Shown: in pieces, positions 11,998 through 40,887 of the stretch
Layout: the number at the start of each line of letters is the position of its first letter
Numbering within the stretch: the first letter of the stretch is position 1
Virus record (IMG/VR): IMGVR_UViG_3300035698_004852
Coordinates: 1 to 43,087 of that record
Strand: one strand, 5' to 3'
DNA from: a virus
DNA: 43,087 nucleotides
Translations under genes and position numbers: made by a program
Notes under the pieces: generated by a model
Databases searched by the model: none
What the model was told of the DNA's origin: nothing
What the model saw: the letters and a program-made list of their open reading frames with translations, nothing else

Positions 11998-12596
11998 TGG
12001 TAAATAAAGAAGACAACATTAATGACATTGTACAGTTAGAGGCAGATACTTGGCCTGAAGGAACTAGAGCAAGTAAAAAAGCGTTTGAAAACAGAATTAA
12101 AACATTTCCAAACGGAGTGATTGGAGCAAGAAATGAAGACAATAAATTAATAGGATTAGCAACCAGTTGTGTTCTTTATAAAAAAGATGTAACGCCAGAA
12201 TCAACATGGGAGTCACTTACTGATTATGGTAATATAACAACTCATAAAGAAGATGGTAAAGTATTATATATTGTTAGTTTAGGAGTGAATCCTGAGTATC
12301 AAAGAAAAGGTACAGGAAAACAATTATTATCAGCACAAAAAAAATTAGCTAAAGATATGGGATTAGAATTAGTAGTTCTTGGAAGTAGAGTGCCAGATTT
12401 TCACAAATATGATATGGACATTACAGAATATCTTGAGCGACCAGATGAAAATAATCAGTCTATTGATTCTTTAATTAGATTTTATGAAAATCAAGGATTT
12501 AAAGTAAAACATGTAATAAGTAATTATATGGAAGATGACAAAGAAAGCAGAAACTATGGCGTAGTGATGGAATATAAAACGGGTGAACAGAAATGA
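11994..12596 (+). CDS. GNAT-family acetyltransferase
   Basis: The start overlaps the sulfotransferase stop (ATGATG at 11994). The 200-residue product has the acetyl-CoA-binding motif A VSLGVNPEYQRKGTGKQLLS (R/QxxGxG/A) at about residues 96-115, then a LVVLGS strand and a late FYENQGFKV segment, the usual GNAT end. The substrate is unknown. Coupling to a sulfotransferase suggests a shared small-molecule or glycan target, but this is inference. Confidence 0.85.
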   Translation: MMVNKEDNINDIVQLEADTWPEGTRASKKAFENRIKTFPNGVIGARNEDNKLIGLATSCVLYKKDVTPESTWESLTDYGNITTHKEDGKVLYIVSLGVNPEYQRKGTGKQLLSAQKKLAKDMGLELVVLGSRVPDFHKYDMDITEYLERPDENNQSIDSLIRFYENQGFKVKHVISNYMEDDKESRNYGVVMEYKTGEQK

Positions 12597-14575
12597 AAGA
12601 AGAAGACATATTTTTTGAATTAAATGAAGATTTTATTAAAAACTATAAAGGAAAACAACCTAAATGGGGACCCTTAGGCTATGTTACTTTTAAGCGAACC
12701 TACTCTAGAAAAATTTCTGAAACTAAAACAGAAGAATATTGGCAAACATGTAAAAGAGTTGTTAATGGTGTTTATACTATTCAAAAAAGATACTGTTCTA
12801 GAAATACGTTGCCTTGGAGTCATAGAAAAGCACAAACATCAGCTCAGAGAATGTTTGAATTAATGTGGAATTTTAAGTTTACTCCTCCTGGTAGAGGAAT
12901 GTGGATGATGGGTACTGATTATATGTATAAACGTGGTGGAGCCGCATTACAAAATTGTGGACTTGTATCTACAGAAAATATTAATATAGATTTTGCAGAA
13001 CCATTCTGTTGGCTTATGGATATGAGTATGTTAGGTGTTGGTGTTGGTGGAGATACTAAAGGAGCTGATAAATTCACAGTTAAAGAACCTAAAACGGAAG
13101 ATATAAGTTATGTTGTTGCAGATACTCGTGAAGGATGGGTTGATTTAGTTAGAACGTTATTAAATGCGTTTGCTGGAAAAAATACGTTACCAACTCATAT
13201 AGACTATTCTAAAGTTAGAAAAGCAGGAGAACCTATTCATGGATTTGGAGGAGTAGCTTCAGGCCCCGGACCGTTAATTGAAATGTATGAGAGTATTAAA
13301 GATATGCTTATTAATAAAGTAGGACAAAAGTTATCATCAGTAGATATTGTTGACGTATTTAATTTAATATCTAGATGTGTGGTTAGTGGAAATATAAGAA
13401 GAAGTGCTACTATAATGTTTGGAGAACCTCATGATGAAGACTTTTTAGAACTTAAAAATCCTGATAAGTTCAAGAAAGAAATTATGCATCACCGTTGGTC
13501 GTCGAATAATTCAATATTTGCTAAGATAGGTATGGACTATTCTCATGTTGCTGAGAAAACAGCTAAGAATGGAGAACCTGGATATATGTGGCTTGATAAT
13601 GCTAAAGAATTTAGTCGTATGAAAGGATGGAAAGATAATAAAGATTACAAAATAATGGGAGCAAATCCTTGTATGGAACAATCTTTAGAAGCATGGGAGC
13701 TTTGTAATCTTGTTGAAAGTTATCCTGTAAATCATGACTCTTTAGAGGACTGGATAGAAACTTTAAAATACGCTTATTTGTATGCTAAAACAGTAACTTT
13801 AATACCAACACATCATGAGAAAACAAATTCTGTAATGCTTAGAAATAGACGTATAGGATGTTCTATTAGTGGAATTACTCAAGCATTTAAAAAGTTTGGT
13901 AGAAGAGAATTTTTAAATAAGTGTGAAACAGGATATGACGCTATCCAAAATTGGGATAAAATATATTCTGATTGGTTATGTGTACCAAGAAGTATTAAAA
14001 CAACAAGTGTTAAACCCAGTGGAACTATTTCATTACTTAGTGGTGTGACACCAGGAATACATTATCCAATCTCTGAATATTTTATTAGAAACATTAGATT
14101 TCAGGAAGGAAGTCCAATGATTGACGAACTTGAAAAAGCAGGATATAAAATAGAGAAAGATAAATATTCTATGAATACATTTGTGGTAAGTTTCCCAGTA
14201 AAACAAGAATTCTTTGATAGAGGAATTGAAGATGTTTCAATGTGGGAACAACTAGAAAACACTGCTCAAGTACAAGAACATTGGGCTGACAATCAAGTTA
14301 GTGTAACTATTTCGTTCTCTCCAGAAGAAGCGTCACAAATACAGTATGCTTTAGAACTTTACGAAACTAGATTGAAAGGAGTTAGTTTTTTACCTAAGAA
14401 AGACCACGGGTACGAACAAGCACCATACATTCCTATAGATAAAGAAATTTACGAAATATTAACGGAAGACCTTAAGAAAGTAAAGCTTAAGAACACAAAA
14501 CATGAAATAACAGAAAAATTCTGTGATAATGATTCATGTGAATTGAGGGACCTAAAAAATGCCATTAAACATTAA
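12593..14575 (+). CDS. nrdJ: Adenosylcobalamin-dependent ribonucleotide reductase (class II, monomeric type)
   Basis: The start overlaps the previous stop (ATGA). The 660-residue protein resembles the Lactobacillus leichmannii triphosphate reductase type. Visible sites: TPPGRGMWMMGT, ALQNCG with Cys122, SGNIRRSA, NPCME with Cys360 and Glu362, ELC with Cys371 exactly 11 residues later (as in C408/C419 of the reference enzyme), KPSGTISLLSGVTPG, and a C-terminal CDNDSC pair (644, 649) for thiol relay. It makes dNTPs without oxygen and needs vitamin B12 from the host. A glutaredoxin at 4913 and the dUTPase next door fit the same pathway. Confidence 0.93.
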   Translation: MKEEDIFFELNEDFIKNYKGKQPKWGPLGYVTFKRTYSRKISETKTEEYWQTCKRVVNGVYTIQKRYCSRNTLPWSHRKAQTSAQRMFELMWNFKFTPPGRGMWMMGTDYMYKRGGAALQNCGLVSTENINIDFAEPFCWLMDMSMLGVGVGGDTKGADKFTVKEPKTEDISYVVADTREGWVDLVRTLLNAFAGKNTLPTHIDYSKVRKAGEPIHGFGGVASGPGPLIEMYESIKDMLINKVGQKLSSVDIVDVFNLISRCVVSGNIRRSATIMFGEPHDEDFLELKNPDKFKKEIMHHRWSSNNSIFAKIGMDYSHVAEKTAKNGEPGYMWLDNAKEFSRMKGWKDNKDYKIMGANPCMEQSLEAWELCNLVESYPVNHDSLEDWIETLKYAYLYAKTVTLIPTHHEKTNSVMLRNRRIGCSISGITQAFKKFGRREFLNKCETGYDAIQNWDKIYSDWLCVPRSIKTTSVKPSGTISLLSGVTPGIHYPISEYFIRNIRFQEGSPMIDELEKAGYKIEKDKYSMNTFVVSFPVKQEFFDRGIEDVSMWEQLENTAQVQEHWADNQVSVTISFSPEEASQIQYALELYETRLKGVSFLPKKDHGYEQAPYIPIDKEIYEILTEDLKKVKLKNTKHEITEKFCDNDSCELRDLKNAIKH

Positions 14576-17115: not shown

Positions 17116-20100
17116 ATTACGTTTCTCATTGAAGCCACTCAAAAAGAAAACCACACTGATATCTTTAGATTTTATAGAGATAAGAAGGGAGAGAAACATG
17201 TAGAAAAGATTAGTGATTTTACTCCTTATTTTTTTGTTCCAGAAAGTAGTCCTGTACCGGATGATTATAGAATAATTAATATAACTAAAGGTTTCAAAGG
17301 TCTTACTGGTGACCCTAATAATCCAACAGAACCAGTTAAGAAGATTTCACTTAAACGTTCTATGGATTGTATAGATATTAAAAAGCATTTCCCTAAAACT
17401 TACGAAGCAGATATTCCATTCCCTCAAAGATATTTAATAGATGTAGTTGGAGAAACTGACCTTTATAATTTAAGAACTCTTTATTTAGATATTGAAACTG
17501 ATGATTATGGTGGATTTCCTGATATGGAAACTGCTGATAGACAAGTTATAAGTATTTCTTTCTTAGATAGTTTTACTAAAAAGAAGTATAAGATGTTATA
17601 TAAACCAAAAGAGTGTAAAGTAAAGCTTGACGATGATATTATAGTTTTTGACACAGAAGAAGAATTATTAATGGGCATATTAGCTGTTATTAAAGACACT
17701 GACCCCGATATTATAACTGGGTGGAACGTTATTAATTTCGATTTAATATACTTAATAAGACGTATGGAACGTCTTCATGTTGATTATAGAACAATGTCTC
17801 CTCTAGGTCATGTTAGAATAGATGAGAGATATGAAGATGTTGTTATTAAAGGAAGAATAGTTCTTGATATGATGATGGCTTATAAACATTATAGGCGAAT
17901 AACTAATCAAGGACAGGCTGAAAGTTACAGTTTACAGTTTACTGGTGAAGATGTTTTAGGAGCTGGTAAGATAGAACACAAAGAAACTTTCAGAGAAATG
18001 TGGTTAAATAATACTAATAAATTAATGGAATACAACCTTAGAGATGTTGAGATGGTTTACCAAATCAACGAAAAATGTCAAATAATAGACTTCTTTAATA
18101 ATATTAGAAATAAAGCTTGTGCTCAATTAAGAAATATTTATCAAACATCAACTCTTGTTGATGGATTACTTTTAAGCAGAGTTCATAATAAAGTAGCGTT
18201 ACCTTCTAAAATAAAACATGAAGAAATACCTTATAGTGGTGCTCATGTATTCGACCCAATACCTGGGCTTTATGATGAAGTAATGGCGTTAGATGTTAAA
18301 GGAATGTACCCTAATATTATCAAGACATTTAATATTAGTTACGAAACATTCAATCCTGATGGAAATATTCAAGTACGTGAAGGTATTGGTTTTGATAGTG
18401 GAACAGGACTTATTTCTCAAACTGTTAGAGATTTAGAAAAAGAAAGAGCACATTATAAAGGATTAATGAAAGTAGCTAATGATGCAGGAAATGCTGATGA
18501 TAGACTATTATACCATTTTAGACAATACGCTGTTAAAGTATTAACAAATGCTATTTACGGATATCTTGGATTTCCTGGGTCAAGACTTTACAGACCAGAA
18601 GTTGCAGAAGCAGTTACAATTTTAGGCAGAGATTTAATTAAGTGGACAGCTATCTTTTTAGAAGATAGAAAATATAACATTGTTTACGGAGACAGCGTTG
18701 TAAAAGATACTGAAATAATTATTAAGCGTAACAATAAAATACATTTTACAACTATAGATACATTATTTAATAAAGTAGATTATGTTGATGGTAAAAAAGA
18801 ATATTGTAATGTCTATGATACTGAGAGTTTAACCATAGATAATAATGGAAAATCAGTATTTAAACCGATAAAATACGTTATGAGACATAAAACAAACAAG
18901 CAAATTTTTAAAACAAATCTCACTAACACATGGAATATAAGTACTACAGAAGACCATTCTCTAATAGGATACTTAAATTCTAATTTTTCTAACACTAAAA
19001 AAGACGCTGACAGATTAGTAGAAATTAAACCAACCGAGATTGGTGATAAAATTAAATCATTAATCTCACTAAAATATATTCCCAGAACATACATAGTTAA
19101 TAAATATCTGTCAAAAGAAGTTTATAAATTTTTAGGTTTTTTTATTGGTGATGGCTCTTTTAATAGTAAATACGGGAATAAGAATTATTATATAGGGATT
19201 TCATGTGGTAATGATGTTAGTGAAATAGAGAAAAAACTATTAATTCCTTTAAAAGAACAGAAGATTATAAAAAATTATTGGTTAAAAAAGAAAGGAGATG
19301 TAATGATTAATGGATTAGATTTTGTCAGATTTATTGAAAAAGAATGTAGAACTAAAAATGGTAAAAAGATTCCTGATTTTATGTTTTCTGAAACAAAAGA
19401 AAATATTGGATACTTTCTTAATGGACTGTTCTCAGCTGATGGTTCAGTAATGTTAAGAAATTCTTCTCCTATAATAAAGTTTTCACAAAATAATAGAAAA
19501 ATAATCAATGATTGTAGAAAACTATTATATTTTATGGGCATAGCTAATGGAGACTTTATTAATAATACAATGAATAAATATTGTGGTAAAGAACTTAATA
19601 CTTATAATTCTAATGTTACAATTTATGATAATTTATTATTCAGAGACAGTGTTGGTTTTTTATTGGATAGAAAACAGTCTAGACTTAATAATATCAAACG
19701 TAATAAAAACATAAAAAACGATTTCCATATTAAAAAAGTTATTGGAGTTGATAATATTAAATATGACGATTACGTATATGATATTGAGGTAGAAGATACT
19801 CACAGATTCTTTGCTAATAATATGTTGGTTCATAATACTGATTCTGTTTATGTTAAGGCTCAAACTAGTGGTATTTTTAAGATTCTTAAAGAAGGAAGAG
19901 ACATAGTAAAAGAAATAAATGATTCTTATTTTGATTTTGCTAAAAAATATGGGAGCGATGATTGCACTCTTGAAATGGAATTTGAGAAAATATTTAAACG
20001 AATTCTATTTGTGGGTAAGAAGGGTGGAAAAGACGAGAAGGGAGCAAAAAAAACTTACGCTTATCTTCCGTTATGGATTGATGGAAAGAAAGTAACTGAT

Positions 20101-20655
20101 AAAGTTGAATTTACAGGCTTTGCTACCGTACGTTCGGATTCACCTCGTGTTGCTAGAGAAATTCAAAAAACAGTGTTAGATATGGTACTTAAAGGACATA
20201 AAAAAGATGCTGTTATGGAATACTTGCAAAAAATAGAGAAAGGAATTCGACATAAAGAAGTTTCAGATGAAGAAATAGGATTTCCAAAAGGTATATCAAA
20301 TGAATTACATAAATATGGTGGGATTAAAACTCGTGAAGATGGTACGACTTATAAGGCCGGGACCCCTCCAGTTGTTACTGGCTCTCGCTACGCTAACAAG
20401 TATTTGGGGACTAGATTTGGTAAGGGCAGTAAACCTAAGTGGACTTACATTAAGACAGTGGCTAAGGGATATCCACCAACAAAAGTCATTGCGTATGAAG
20501 AAACAATACCTGAAGGATTCTTACCAGACTATCAAATGTTGTATGAAAGAATCTTTAAAATGAAGTTGAATCAGATATTTAAAGCGGCTGGATTTGGTGA
20601 ATTACCTGATATGGATGGAGCTAATAAGACTTTGGACAAGTGGTTTAAACAGTGA
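17116..20655 (+). CDS. polB: Family B DNA polymerase with intein; non-ATG start
   Basis: The frame is open from 17110, and residues before the first ATG (17362) belong to the fold (SDFTPYFFVPES, GFKGLTG). The only Shine-Dalgarno is AGGTGA at 17104-17109; an ATT at 17116 has ideal 6-base spacing, with ACG at 17119 as alternative. Exonuclease motifs: LDIETDD (Asp125), NVINFD, YNLRD. Polymerase motifs: DVKGMYP (Asp393), KVLTNAIYG, and YGD/TDS split by the intein. After splicing the enzyme would be about 798 residues with proofreading, the usual archaeal size. It uses the PCNA clamp at 9327. Confidence 0.93.
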   Translation: MTFLIEATQKENHTDIFRFYRDKKGEKHVEKISDFTPYFFVPESSPVPDDYRIINITKGFKGLTGDPNNPTEPVKKISLKRSMDCIDIKKHFPKTYEADIPFPQRYLIDVVGETDLYNLRTLYLDIETDDYGGFPDMETADRQVISISFLDSFTKKKYKMLYKPKECKVKLDDDIIVFDTEEELLMGILAVIKDTDPDIITGWNVINFDLIYLIRRMERLHVDYRTMSPLGHVRIDERYEDVVIKGRIVLDMMMAYKHYRRITNQGQAESYSLQFTGEDVLGAGKIEHKETFREMWLNNTNKLMEYNLRDVEMVYQINEKCQIIDFFNNIRNKACAQLRNIYQTSTLVDGLLLSRVHNKVALPSKIKHEEIPYSGAHVFDPIPGLYDEVMALDVKGMYPNIIKTFNISYETFNPDGNIQVREGIGFDSGTGLISQTVRDLEKERAHYKGLMKVANDAGNADDRLLYHFRQYAVKVLTNAIYGYLGFPGSRLYRPEVAEAVTILGRDLIKWTAIFLEDRKYNIVYGDSVVKDTEIIIKRNNKIHFTTIDTLFNKVDYVDGKKEYCNVYDTESLTIDNNGKSVFKPIKYVMRHKTNKQIFKTNLTNTWNISTTEDHSLIGYLNSNFSNTKKDADRLVEIKPTEIGDKIKSLISLKYIPRTYIVNKYLSKEVYKFLGFFIGDGSFNSKYGNKNYYIGISCGNDVSEIEKKLLIPLKEQKIIKNYWLKKKGDVMINGLDFVRFIEKECRTKNGKKIPDFMFSETKENIGYFLNGLFSADGSVMLRNSSPIIKFSQNNRKIINDCRKLLYFMGIANGDFINNTMNKYCGKELNTYNSNVTIYDNLLFRDSVGFLLDRKQSRLNNIKRNKNIKNDFHIKKVIGVDNIKYDDYVYDIEVEDTHRFFANNMLVHNTDSVYVKAQTSGIFKILKEGRDIVKEINDSYFDFAKKYGSDDCTLEMEFEKIFKRILFVGKKGGKDEKGAKKTYAYLPLWIDGKKVTDKVEFTGFATVRSDSPRVAREIQKTVLDMVLKGHKKDAVMEYLQKIEKGIRHKEVSDEEIGFPKGISNELHKYGGIKTREDGTTYKAGTPPVVTGSRYANKYLGTRFGKGSKPKWTYIKTVAKGYPPTKVIAYEETIPEGFLPDYQMLYERIFKMKLNQIFKAAGFGELPDMDGANKTLDKWFKQ
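18694..19836 (+). mobile_element. Intein with LAGLIDADG homing endonuclease in polB
   Basis: The insertion splits the catalytic YGDTDS motif between GD and TDS, a known intein site in family B polymerases. It starts with Ser (SVVKDTEIII) and ends in VHN before Thr, the splice signals of a class 1 intein. The 381 residues contain two LAGLIDADG-type motifs, FLGFFIGDGSF and LNGLFSADGSV, both with their acidic residue, plus block B (TTEDHSL) and block F (YDIEVEDTHRFFANN). The splicing and endonuclease parts appear intact. Confidence 0.92.
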
Positions 20656-21764: not shown

Positions 21765-21954
21765 ATTAGAAAAGAAACTTCTGATGGAACAAAAATCGAA
21801 TGATTTGTTATTTAAACAACAGAAAGAGCTTAGAATACTTGCGGAAGAAGCTGGTAGTCAAATGTCAGAATTTAAACATAAATACTTAAGATTATTAGAA
21901 GAGAATGAAAAATTAAAAAATGAAATAAAATTTAACATAGGTGGTAAAAAATGA
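21727..21954 (+). CDS. 75-residue coiled-coil protein
   Basis: ATG at 21727 overlaps the end of the primase gene by 38 bases. The product is a near-continuous heptad coiled coil (LEDTIHKLEKKLLMEQKSND, HKYLRLLEENEKLKNEI) ending in GGKK. Its stop overlaps the next start (ATGA at 21951). A dimeric helper or tether is likely; the specific partner is unknown. Confidence 0.55.
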   Translation: MPKKETLEDTIHKLEKKLLMEQKSNDLLFKQQKELRILAEEAGSQMSEFKHKYLRLLEENEKLKNEIKFNIGGKK

Positions 21955-22703
21955 ACGTAAATCGTGTAACCTGCTCAAATATAACTGGTAATGAACTTGA
22001 AATTTTCTTTTTCGGAGACCAACATATAGGCAGTAAAGATTGTGATATGAATGAAATAGAAAAACAAGTTAAAAAAATGAAGAAACAAAAGAACTGTATG
22101 ATTATTCTTATGGGAGACACTATTAATTGTGGTCTTAAACATTCTATTGGCGCAGGTAGTTTTGATGATACTATGACTCCAGAAAAACAAATTGAAAAAG
22201 CTGTAGAATTATTTAAACCATTAAAAAATAAGATTATAGGAGTACATAATGGAAATCATTCTAATAGAATATCTAATGAAACAACTCTTAGTCCTGAAAA
22301 GATTATTGCAACTGCTTTAGATGTGCCTTATCTTGGAGATACTTGTTTTAGTCATTTAAGATTTAAGGATGAGACTTATATATTGTTTACAGCTCATGGT
22401 AGTACTGGTAGTACAACTGTTGCAGGAGCATTAAATTCATGTGCTAAATATGCTACATTTGCTAATGCTGACATTTATGCTATGGGACACTCTCATAAAC
22501 TAGCAACTTATAACCAAATATATAAAGAAGTATGTAAAAAAGATAAGACAGTAATTGATAAGAAGAAGCATTTCGTATTAACTGGTAGTTACGTTAAATG
22601 GAAAGATTCATATGCGGAATCTAAAAACTATGCTCCAATGAGAATGGGATGTGCAAGTGCATTAATTAAAGGTAAAGAACACGATATACTTATAAAAACG
22701 TAG
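21951..22703 (+). CDS. Calcineurin-like metallophosphoesterase
   Basis: The 250-residue protein has the complete metal-binding set: FFGDQHIG (GDxH), ILMGDTINCG (GD), GVHNGNHS (GNH), LFTAHGS (H) and YAMGHSHK (GHxH). These bind two metal ions for phosphodiester or phosphomonoester cleavage. Phage and archaeal members include nucleases, nucleotidases and Mre11-like proteins; no extra domain decides between them. It follows the primase and coiled-coil genes, which favours a DNA-metabolism role. Confidence 0.82.
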   Translation: MNVNRVTCSNITGNELEIFFFGDQHIGSKDCDMNEIEKQVKKMKKQKNCMIILMGDTINCGLKHSIGAGSFDDTMTPEKQIEKAVELFKPLKNKIIGVHNGNHSNRISNETTLSPEKIIATALDVPYLGDTCFSHLRFKDETYILFTAHGSTGSTTVAGALNSCAKYATFANADIYAMGHSHKLATYNQIYKEVCKKDKTVIDKKKHFVLTGSYVKWKDSYAESKNYAPMRMGCASALIKGKEHDILIKT

Positions 22704-22713
22704 GTGGTAAAAT

Positions 22714-23091
22714 ATGTTAATATATTTAATAACAACAGGATTGATAGTATATGTTATTATGCAGAATAAAGAATATACTAGAAAAATAAAAGAGTTAGAA
22801 AAAGTTATAGAAAAAAATGATAAGTCAAATATTCTTTTGGCACAAACTCTTAATGGATTACAAGGAGCTTTGAAAGACATTATTACAGCAGTTAAATTAC
22901 AGGCTAAGAGAATAGAGAAATTTCCGTCACCAGAAGAACTTGCTAAACAAGTGTTAAAAGTTAAGATACCTGTGGAAGAAGTTCCTCCTGATGTAATGGA
23001 AGCTATGCTTAGACAACAAGAATCTCTTAAACAAGGCGGAGAAAACATACCAACTCCAGAAGTATTAGAAAGCACAGGTTATATAGGATGA
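22714..23091 (+). CDS. Membrane-anchored coiled-coil protein
   Basis: ATG at 22714 follows AGGTGG. The 125-residue product starts with a transmembrane segment (MLIYLITTGLIVYVIM), then a coiled coil (KIKELEKVIEKNDKS ... ITAVKLQAKRIEKF) and a proline/glutamate-rich tail (KIPVEEVPPDVMEAMLRQQE). The stop overlaps the next start (ATGA). Function unknown. Confidence 0.55.
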   Translation: MLIYLITTGLIVYVIMQNKEYTRKIKELEKVIEKNDKSNILLAQTLNGLQGALKDIITAVKLQAKRIEKFPSPEELAKQVLKVKIPVEEVPPDVMEAMLRQQESLKQGGENIPTPEVLESTGYIG

Positions 23092-23555: not shown

Positions 23556-23582
23556 AAAATACAAACATTTATATACTAGAAC
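23556..23582 (+). promoter_or_regulatory. Late-type promoter, 27-base copy 1
   Basis: This stretch holds ACAAACATTTATATACTAGA (23561-23580), with TATA box TTTATATA at 23568-23575. All 27 bases recur on the other strand at 40861-40887, upstream of the tail operon. It stands in the gap after the GIY-YIG gene, about 120 bases before the lipoprotein gene. Confidence 0.75.
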
Positions 23583-23600
23583 TACCATATATAGTACTAG
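23576..23600 (+). promoter_or_regulatory. 25-base dyad over the expected start site (operator candidate)
   Basis: CTAG-A-ACTA and TAGT-A-CTAG flank the 7-base centre CCATATA (A-A mismatch in each arm). The dyad abuts the TATA box and covers the region where transcription should begin. The tail-operon copy of the promoter lacks the second arm, so this control would be specific to the lipoprotein gene. Confidence 0.45.
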
Positions 23601-23611
23601 TTAAACAAAAA

Positions 23612-23670
23612 ACTACTTCTACATGAATTTTACGACGGATAATATGTCGTGCTATTCGGAAAGAAGTAGT
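23612..23670 (+). ncRNA. Structured 5' leader hairpin of the lipoprotein gene
   Basis: The stem pairs ACTACTTCT (23612-23620) with AGAAGTAGT (23662-23670), GAAT (23625) with ATTC (23654), and ACGAC (23632) with GTCGT (23646). It has symmetric 4x4 and 3x3 internal loops and a 9-base apical loop. It lies between the promoter and the AAGGTGA at 23688-23693. It could stabilise the mRNA or control translation. Confidence 0.6.
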
Positions 23671-23699
23671 AAATATTAACCAACTTAAGGTGATAACCT

Positions 23700-25361
23700 A
23701 TGGTAAAAAAACAAATAATTGCATTAATTGCAATTTTACTTATGGTATTTGCTCTAGCAACACTGTCTGGTTGTACAGACAAGATTACAGTTGAAGACGC
23801 AGATGCTCAAGTAGAAGCGGCAAAGAATGCAACAACAGAGGAGTTCACAACTAAGCTTAATGAACTCAAAACTGAGCTGGACACGAAAATAGCGGCTTTA
23901 GAAGAAGATAAAACTTCTGTCGAAAAAATGCTATCAACAGAAACAGCAGACAAAGAAGCTTTAGAAGTCGAACTTTTAGTTCTAACTGAACAATTAACAG
24001 AACTAGAAACAGCGGCTGAAACTGTGGAGGACATTTGTCAAATGGTTGAGGAATATAAGCTAAACACTGATATTAAATCAACTCTTGATGATAATGACCT
24101 TTCTAAGCTATTAGATACTAGTATAGAATTTGATGGCGCTAAATATGACGTACACGAAGAACTTAGTTTCACAACAGATGCACAAATAATGACATCTGAA
24201 AAAGGAGATGAAGATTTCGCAGATATGGCGTATTTAGTTATGAATGATGAAGACGCAATAACTTATAGATTTGTGTTTGATGACCCAGTTGACATTGACG
24301 AAATTACATATGAAGACACTCTTAAACTAAGTTTACTTGGTAAAGATGTTGAAATATCAAATGTAAAATCAGATGAATTTACGCTTATTAGCGGTAAACA
24401 ATTCACTATGGATGAAGGCGAAGTCGCTGAACTCGATTTAGATGGTGAAACCGTTAAGATAGAAGTTTTATCAATCTCAGATGGAACTGGCGAAGCTAAG
24501 TTCTTTATTGATGGCATCGAAGGTGGTGTAAGTAAAGCTATGAAATCAACAGAATCTGATAAAGTTGGAGCATACTCTATTTATGTAGAAGAATCTTTAC
24601 CTAATGAAGCTGGTGAAACAACTGGTGGAGACATTGTTGTATTTAAAATTGCTAAAGGCGATGTAGAAACTGTTGTAAAAAACGGACGCTTCTATAATGA
24701 AGACGTTGACTTATGGAAATGGAATATCGTAATTAAGAACAAAGAGCTTGTTGCTCTAGAACTTATACTTGATGAACGATTCGATGAAGTAGACGATGAA
24801 TTCCCTGCTTTTGCAGTTGGTAAATATTTATCTCTTCCAGAAGAATATCTAAGTATCGGTATTGCTGAATTAGAAGATGCTGAATATGAATCTATTGTAT
24901 TTAGCTTTGATGACAGTTACGGCGATGGCGACGTTCCAGTACTTTTAGTTGAAACTGAAGGAGATTTCCTTGAAGTTGGAGATGATGAAGTTAGTGAAGT
25001 CGGATACAATGGTAGCAAATTCATCTATAAAGACGAAGACGGAGACTGGCAAACTGCTAATAAACTCTTCTATGATACTAATGACATAAGACGTAGAGTC
25101 AAAGTTGGTGTCGTTAATGAAGTAACATTTGGAGAATTTAACATGTCTATTGACATTACAAATTCAATATTTGGTGCGTTAGAAGAAGAAGCAGAAGCTG
25201 ACGAACTGTTAATCAATGGTAAAGACTTTAGCTTTGAAGACTTAGATGTTTTAACTACTAAAGGATTTATTGTGGAAAGCCCAGAAGACGGTCTAGAAGA
25301 AGACGAAGTTTCAATACTAGTCCCTAGTGACGTTGTAAAGGCATCTCTTTGTATAAGGTAA
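23700..25361 (+). CDS. S-layer-like lipoprotein
   Basis: ATG at 23700 follows AAGGTGA. The 553-residue protein has a signal peptide with a lipobox LSGC (Cys25), then an acidic coiled coil at about residues 30-105 (heptads in LTEQLTELETAAETVEDI), then beta-rich repeats with S-layer-type phrases (LSLLGKDVEISNV, LINGKDFSFED, GDIVVFKIAKGDVETVVKNG). Such phrases are what I recall from S-layer proteins of methanogens and DPANN archaea. It would be lipid-anchored at the outer cell face on a stalk. It has its own promoter, dyad, leader hairpin and terminator. A viral coat-layer or exclusion role is inference. Confidence 0.7.
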   Translation: MVKKQIIALIAILLMVFALATLSGCTDKITVEDADAQVEAAKNATTEEFTTKLNELKTELDTKIAALEEDKTSVEKMLSTETADKEALEVELLVLTEQLTELETAAETVEDICQMVEEYKLNTDIKSTLDDNDLSKLLDTSIEFDGAKYDVHEELSFTTDAQIMTSEKGDEDFADMAYLVMNDEDAITYRFVFDDPVDIDEITYEDTLKLSLLGKDVEISNVKSDEFTLISGKQFTMDEGEVAELDLDGETVKIEVLSISDGTGEAKFFIDGIEGGVSKAMKSTESDKVGAYSIYVEESLPNEAGETTGGDIVVFKIAKGDVETVVKNGRFYNEDVDLWKWNIVIKNKELVALELILDERFDEVDDEFPAFAVGKYLSLPEEYLSIGIAELEDAEYESIVFSFDDSYGDGDVPVLLVETEGDFLEVGDDEVSEVGYNGSKFIYKDEDGDWQTANKLFYDTNDIRRRVKVGVVNEVTFGEFNMSIDITNSIFGALEEEAEADELLINGKDFSFEDLDVLTTKGFIVESPEDGLEEDEVSILVPSDVVKASLCIR

Positions 25362-25391: not shown

Positions 25392-25411
25392 AATTAAAAT
25401 TAGAGGAAAAA

Positions 25412-25513
25412 ATGAAAGAACAACCAAAAAAAGATGGTAGTGGTAAAGGATTAAGAGCTAATAAAGGACGTAGTGGTTGTAAAGTTAATAAACCAGTAGG
25501 TCAAGGTAAATAA
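25412..25513 (+). CDS. 33-residue Gly/Lys-rich peptide
   Basis: ATG at 25412 follows AGAGG at 25402-25406. The product starts MKEQPKKDGSGKGLRANKGR and ends SGCKVNKPVGQGK. The DGSGKG...NKGR..GC pattern is one I recall as a short conserved peptide in phages and DPANN genomes; function unknown. One base separates its stop from the next start. Confidence 0.55.
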   Translation: MKEQPKKDGSGKGLRANKGRSGCKVNKPVGQGK

Positions 25514-40828: not shown

Positions 40829-40860
40829 TCGAAAATAATACTTTAATATACTAATAGTGT

Positions 40861-40887
40861 GTTCTAGTATATAAATGTTTGTATTTT
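40861..40887 (-). promoter_or_regulatory. Late-type promoter, 27-base copy 2
   Basis: On the - strand this reads the same 27 bases as 23556-23582, including ACAAACATTTATATACTAGA. The TATA box lies about 40 bases upstream of the first coding start region (40825/40789). It would drive the terminator, closure, tail-tube and tape-measure genes. Confidence 0.75.

Follow-up and report, generated by a model that had tools for sequence, protein, structure and literature searches.

An open reading frame (ORF) at positions 23700-25361 raises the question of why a tailed virus would encode what appears to be a membrane-anchored part of an archaeal S-layer. The window, meaning the whole stretch of DNA analysed here, comprises 43,087 bases and is the full length of its source IMG/VR virus record. 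Its plus strand encodes RadA, an intein-bearing family B DNA polymerase (PolB), a clamp loader, a PriL-like protein and a class II ribonucleotide reductase, and its minus strand a tail tube, a tape measure and further tail genes, a combination that identifies the source as a tailed archaeal virus. The ORF lies on the plus strand, at the point where this replication-type block meets the minus-strand tail block. The best 80 relatives of the viral RadA in a GTDB-based collection share 50-57% identity with it and are labelled Woesearchaeota, Nanoarchaeota, Nanoarchaeia or unspecified archaeal or DPANN bins; the single Aminicenantes and single Euryarchaeota labels among them are probably binning or naming artefacts. 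From these relationships we infer that the host is a member of the Nanoarchaeota (GTDB sense), a tiny DPANN archaeon, and because the RadA relatives are nearly all Woesearchaeota, Nanoarchaeota or equivalent DPANN bins, it probably carries an S-layer of the PF05124 type. The intein (Intein_splicing, LAGLIDADG) splits the polymerase at window positions 17362-20655 and is apparently absent from the L007 and L145 relatives, where the ORFs are shorter. The reductase (12593-14575) is a class II, adenosylcobalamin-dependent ribonucleoside-triphosphate reductase; the presumed DPANN hosts often have little nucleotide synthesis of their own.

The ORF, referred to below as the mimic, and its predicted parts are as follows.

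23689..23693, plus strand: ribosome-binding site GGTGA, archaeal type by sequence; L010, L007 and L145 have GGTG ahead of the start codon too
23700..25361, plus strand: S-layer mimic gene, an intact ORF with an ATG start encoding 553 amino acids
23700..23774, plus strand: signal peptide and lipobox LSGC with a predicted lipid anchor at Cys25, by sequence; lipobox retained in L010/L011
23778..24062, plus strand: predicted acidic coiled-coil stalk, residues 27-121, from heptad contrast against shuffles and AF2 helices; found in all four viral homologs
24081..25352, plus strand: S-layer inner domain, residues 128-551, host-profile E 8.6e-58, hhalign probability 100% and E 2.5e-48; stops 2 residues before the C-terminus

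The lipobox (L22-S23-G24-C25) directly follows the hydrophobic stretch at the N-terminus, where Kyte-Doolittle hydropathy in a 19-residue window reaches its maximum of 2.69 at residue 6; past residue 60 it never rises above 0.83. A viral homolog at 41% identity keeps both Cys25 and the signal peptide. The lipobox reads LAGC in L010, and a membrane anchor takes its place in L007 and L145. Residues 27-121 contain neither proline nor glycine and carry 27 acidic against 9 basic residues. Their heptad contrast is equalled by 3% of shuffled sequences for the window protein and by 0.7-1.7% for the other three viral homologs, giving the predicted coiled coil modest statistical backing. AF2 models built from the single sequence or from all four viral ones were poor overall (pLDDT 43.5 and 38.7); both models made residues 31-79 and 85-119/130 helical, with pLDDT mostly 55-78 there. 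The remainder of the protein, residues 128-551, is β-rich. A preliminary description of this DNA had proposed a signal peptide with a lipobox at Cys25 followed by an acidic coiled coil, and both elements stand on this evidence.

To place the β-rich part, we built a profile (A2) of the C-terminal portion of the viral protein from its homologs in related viral contigs. It matched proteins in 11 of 50 DPANN genomes and in 88 of 279 sampled Nanoarchaeota genomes, with a best E of 2.4e-38 and often with the whole model covered. The matched cellular proteins are mostly 650-900 amino acids long, with an N-terminal signal peptide followed by DLxxYPxPFVxDGxFxxxIVVG and a C-terminal region of the form VGGPCxNxxAxxLMG...VAGYxAxDTRxAA. 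Pfam PF05124 ('S-layer like family, outer domain') was found in all four cellular proteins tested and spans both chain ends in three of them; one of the four also reached TIGR01564. A reciprocal profile (A4), built from cellular inner regions alone and searched against a set of 500 shuffled copies together with the ORFs of the window, L010 and L007, retrieved three viral proteins (E 8.6e-58 for the window protein, 5.4e-52 and 2.1e-24) and nothing else, with none of the 500 shuffles matching. Profile-to-profile comparison of the viral and cellular inner regions with hhalign gave a probability of 100% and E 2.5e-48 over 420 columns, and the viral profile found no match among shuffled and reversed host proteins. 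By these searches in both directions, the ~430 C-terminal residues are end-to-end sequence homologs of the inner region of Nanoarchaeota/Woesearchaeota S-layer proteins. The 'S-layer-type beta phrases' of the preliminary description thus reflect true homology and not chance, and the absence of profile similarity to S-layer proteins, named beforehand as a possible refutation, is decisively contradicted (E 8.6e-58 and 2.5e-48). Its reading of a membrane-anchored S-layer-like protein was right in substance, anchor and coiled coil being kept across four viral lineages.

More general searches did not reach this relationship. Sequence searches of the PDB, whether started from the viral protein or its profile, from an entire host S-layer protein or from the profile of the host inner domain, returned coiled-coil or chance matches only. 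Pfam, PHROG and NCBIfam searches with the viral protein gave nothing but weak coiled-coil or signal-peptide matches, and tblastn against annotated phage records returned no relative. A contig scan with the viral alignment was likewise empty because short conserved peptides are missing; the profile search of whole genomes did find the cellular homologs.

The viral protein departs from its cellular counterpart on either side of the shared region. In the cellular protein the inner region is enclosed between N-terminal and C-terminal halves of the outer domain. Neither PF05124 nor TIGR01564 matched the viral proteins, and the outer-domain motifs YPxPF (N-terminal half) and VGGPC (C-terminal half) are absent from them. 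The viral chains continue for only 1-3 residues past the inner domain (2 in the window protein) against a host median of 127, and in the window protein the N-terminal outer-domain half is replaced by the lipid anchor and coiled coil. Compared with the DPANN/methanogen-type S-layer protein (PF05124, S_layer_C; TIGR01564, S_layer_MJ), then, the full ~430-residue inner region is common to both in the same order and length, whereas the virus-encoded protein lacks either outer-domain half and has a stalk and a membrane anchor. Lacking the outer domain, the mimic is, as judged from its sequence, not a complete S-layer protein. A simple heptad measure applied to 65 inner-domain proteins scored a coiled-coil N-terminus in 4/4 viral and 0/61 cellular proteins, so that, among the inner-domain proteins examined, every stalk belonged to a viral protein. 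Reuse of the inner-domain module itself is not virus-specific, since some cellular proteins (for example L113, L150, L161, L164, L165 and L166) also carry it without a recognisable outer domain. What is new here is an S-layer domain on a virus-owned anchor, the S-layer inner domain itself being known; a literature search, with most subscription papers outside its reach, turned up no earlier description of such an S-layer homolog in a virus.

Four viral lineages carry the mimic: the window, L010/L011, L007 with its copies, and L145, a 109-kb viral contig whose homolog has 565 amino acids. A further viral scan revealed no fifth lineage, and scanning viral contigs with a full-length host S-layer alignment found no complete S-layer gene by this method. 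Two lineages are anchored through a lipobox and the other two (L007 and L145) through a transmembrane segment at the N-terminus, while stalk and inner domain are constant. Two kinds of anchor joined to a constant stalk and inner domain, with nothing after them, argue for selection on membrane anchoring itself. The viral proteins form long branches within Nanoarchaeota S-layer diversity. A tree of 54 rows groups the proteins of the window, L010 and L145 with support 98/95 and places L007 nearby on a long branch; a topology uniting all four in one clade is not rejected (p-AU 0.26). The sequences are best explained by a capture long ago and descent within the virus group since then, within limits set by letter make-up and long branches. 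dN/dS was unusable because L014 and L015 differ by one codon. The clear cellular homologs could also point to a host S-layer gene brought in by mis-assembly or passive recent capture, but we regard this as extremely improbable given four viral contig lineages with conserved synteny, the long branches just described and a non-cellular architecture common to the viral proteins.

The surroundings of the gene are conserved as well, as the following neighbours illustrate.

21951..22703, plus strand: metallophosphoesterase at the start of the conserved neighbourhood, matching Pfam Metallophos and a PHROG DNA repair exonuclease; 65% identical in L014
22714..23091, plus strand: small membrane protein with an FPTPEELAK-type motif, upstream of the mimic; homologs in the same place in L014, L142 and L145
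23088..23540, plus strand: homing-endonuclease-like small ORF, from PHROG homing endonuclease matches; inspection suggests the GIY-YIG type, and its position is kept in L014 and L142
25515..25727, plus strand: 70-residue hydrophobic membrane protein just downstream of the mimic, a holin-like candidate from sequence alone

Gene order is identical in the window and L014 (PolB, PriL-like, metallophosphoesterase, small membrane protein, homing-endonuclease-like ORF, mimic, cold-shock-like protein, opposite-strand tail genes), and most of it is kept in L142 and L145. Across the relatives the mimic holds a constant position, flanked by the replication block on one side and by structural genes of the other strand on the other. 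The small membrane protein, with a motif of the type FPTPEE-AK---K-P, occurs in all four lineages (window 22714-23091; L010 359-667; L007 15347-15616; L145 6461-6856), always between the primase/phosphoesterase genes and the mimic. A short membrane protein also occupies the post-mimic position in L010 and L007; the 70-residue protein of the window had no family match. A tiny basic Gly/Lys-rich ORF with GTGP/GRGxG-like repeats directly follows the mimic in the window (25408-25510) and in L010 (3328-3528).

Regulatory sequence links the mimic to the virion genes, and three features bear on its expression.

23563..23584, plus strand: 22-bp archaeal-type promoter block AAACATTTATATACTAGAACTA (BRE/TATA-like), by sequence, ending 115 nt before the mimic start codon
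40859..40880, minus strand: second copy of the block, ahead of the connector/tail operon, with 2 mismatches in 22 nt and exact over the first 20
23612..23670, plus strand: 5′ leader hairpin between promoter and start codon, RNA fold z-score -4.4, with 0 of 200 shuffles as stable

At up to three mismatches the 22-mer has two copies in the window and none in 100 shuffles. Upstream of the mimic homologs, AAACATTTATATACTAGAACTA is exact in L014/L010 (over 20 nt in L014/L015) and has 2 mismatches in L142. Equivalents of the block precede the tail operon in L004/L006 and L005; the sequence covered for L002/L003 has no copy ahead of its tail genes, a point against late timing. A promoter block common to the mimic and the connector/tail operon suggests that the mimic is expressed together with virion genes; judged from this motif alone, such co-expression would probably be late. 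The conserved block AAACATTTATATACTAGAAC is common to several genes of the virus group (window 40859-40880, minus strand, and 23563-23584, plus strand; L142 7380 and 7828; L145 9513), including an HNH-like gene in L142 and the post-mimic gene in L145, and may serve this group as its own late promoter. The leader in L014 differs in sequence and is likewise stably folded (z -3.7); these long leaders with strong hairpins (window 23585-23699; L014 5866-6000) have little sequence similarity to each other, and the window contains no Rfam match.

The anatomy of the protein suggests how it might act. The mimic would be exported and anchored to the infected archaeon's cytoplasmic membrane, where its stalk, probably oligomeric, would lift the inner domain to the height of the S-layer. 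There the inner domain could pair with host S-layer subunits from below, or replace them, leaving a lattice that lacks the outer domain wherever the mimic sits, and the likeliest benefit would be that further virions and newly released progeny adsorb poorly to the changed surface. The virus can thus apparently alter its host's surface from below. The archaeal viruses HFTV1 and HRPV-6 use the S-layer as their receptor (PMC9973310), and SSV1 infects less well when the S-layer is depleted (PMC6805947). Since several archaeal viruses need the S-layer in this way, as a receptor or otherwise for infection, a surface altered by subunits without the outer domain could hinder re-adsorption. We give about an even chance to this reading, in which the mimic is a late host-surface protein that presents an anchored inner domain on a stalk and alters the surface so that virions bind it poorly. 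The broader proposal, that a conserved class of archaeal-virus proteins remodels the host S-layer from the membrane side with a captured inner domain on a new stalk, and that these proteins are made alongside those of the virion so as to govern re-adsorption, release or both, seems to us evenly balanced between right and wrong. Phage T5 Llp and T1 Cor offer an analogy as virus-encoded lipoproteins that likewise act on the infected host surface, and Llp blocks a phage receptor (PMC9586334). Both are small lipoproteins that differ from the mimic in having no sequence relation to it, and Llp binds an outer-membrane transporter from the periplasmic side; the hindrance to re-adsorption proposed for the mimic would thus have a parallel in Llp, which achieves it by other means. 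Superinfection exclusion genes are often early and not late, which counts against late masking of a receptor. Also against an exclusion role, HFTV1, an S-layer user, showed no superinfection exclusion (PMC9973310).

The closest competing idea is that the mimic loosens the lattice so that virions can get out, and one act could have both effects; this idea stands almost equal because the exit route of most archaeal viruses from S-layered cells is unknown. On this account, late subunits without an outer domain would poison or open the S-layer lattice and let virions leave a peptidoglycan-free archaeon, with the neighbouring short membrane protein as a possible holin. The promoter in common with the tail genes, the short hydrophobic proteins that adjoin the mimic in three viruses, the unknown means by which most archaeal viruses pass the S-layer (PMC4456609) and weak matches of the membrane-anchored coiled-coil parts to spanins (E 0.007-0.1) speak for egress. 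The spanin matches are confined to the coiled coil, however, and the putative holin lacks a family match, so that we treat egress as a tentative and rather unlikely account. Identity as an Rz/Rz1 spanin was considered separately and rejected, the window protein reaching E 0.095 only, through the coiled coil alone and not the functional-region profile.

Two further accounts rank lower. A stalk resembling Sulfolobus SlaB might hold the host S-layer in place and so preserve the infected cell up to the moment of release. SlaB is a membrane-anchored trimeric coiled coil with β-sandwich domains facing the SlaA canopy (PMC10903991), and β domains held above the membrane on an anchored coiled coil are also the predicted layout of the mimic. 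Yet SlaB is cellular, has its own SlaA partner and runs in the opposite order (β N-terminal, coiled coil C-terminal), the likeness seen being one of layout, and these S-layers have no known need of viral support; we judge this envelope-support role improbable. The promoter in common with structural genes would also suit a protein that decorates the tail or capsid and uses its S-layer-like domains to adhere to the host, but a lipobox signal peptide or N-terminal transmembrane anchor in 4/4 lineages, and a gene on the opposite strand outside the tail operon, make this very improbable. Among the functions put forward in the preliminary description (rebuilding or capping of the host surface, a block to superinfection, protection of released particles), the last, if it required the protein to be built into virions, is the least likely because the protein is predicted to be exported and membrane anchored whereas the tailed virion is assembled in the cytoplasm.

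If the surface-remodelling reading is true, it describes a strategy of cell-wall mimicry not previously described. The conserved swap, in which the outer domain is lost and a stalk gained, points to the part of the host protein that makes the contacts the virus needs. A virus carrying a re-engineered piece of S-layer would give direct access to the questions of how S-layers assemble and how viruses enter and leave DPANN archaea, which are mostly uncultured.

Among cellular sequences, lipoprotein-like ORFs of Woesearchaeota/Nanoarchaeota also bear pieces of the inner domain (L108 922-2223 on the minus strand, L166 and L177) and are possible cellular accessory S-layer lipoproteins. In two other cellular proteins (L181 and L182) the inner domain is seemingly circularly permuted, with the C-terminal part first and a GGPC-like segment between.
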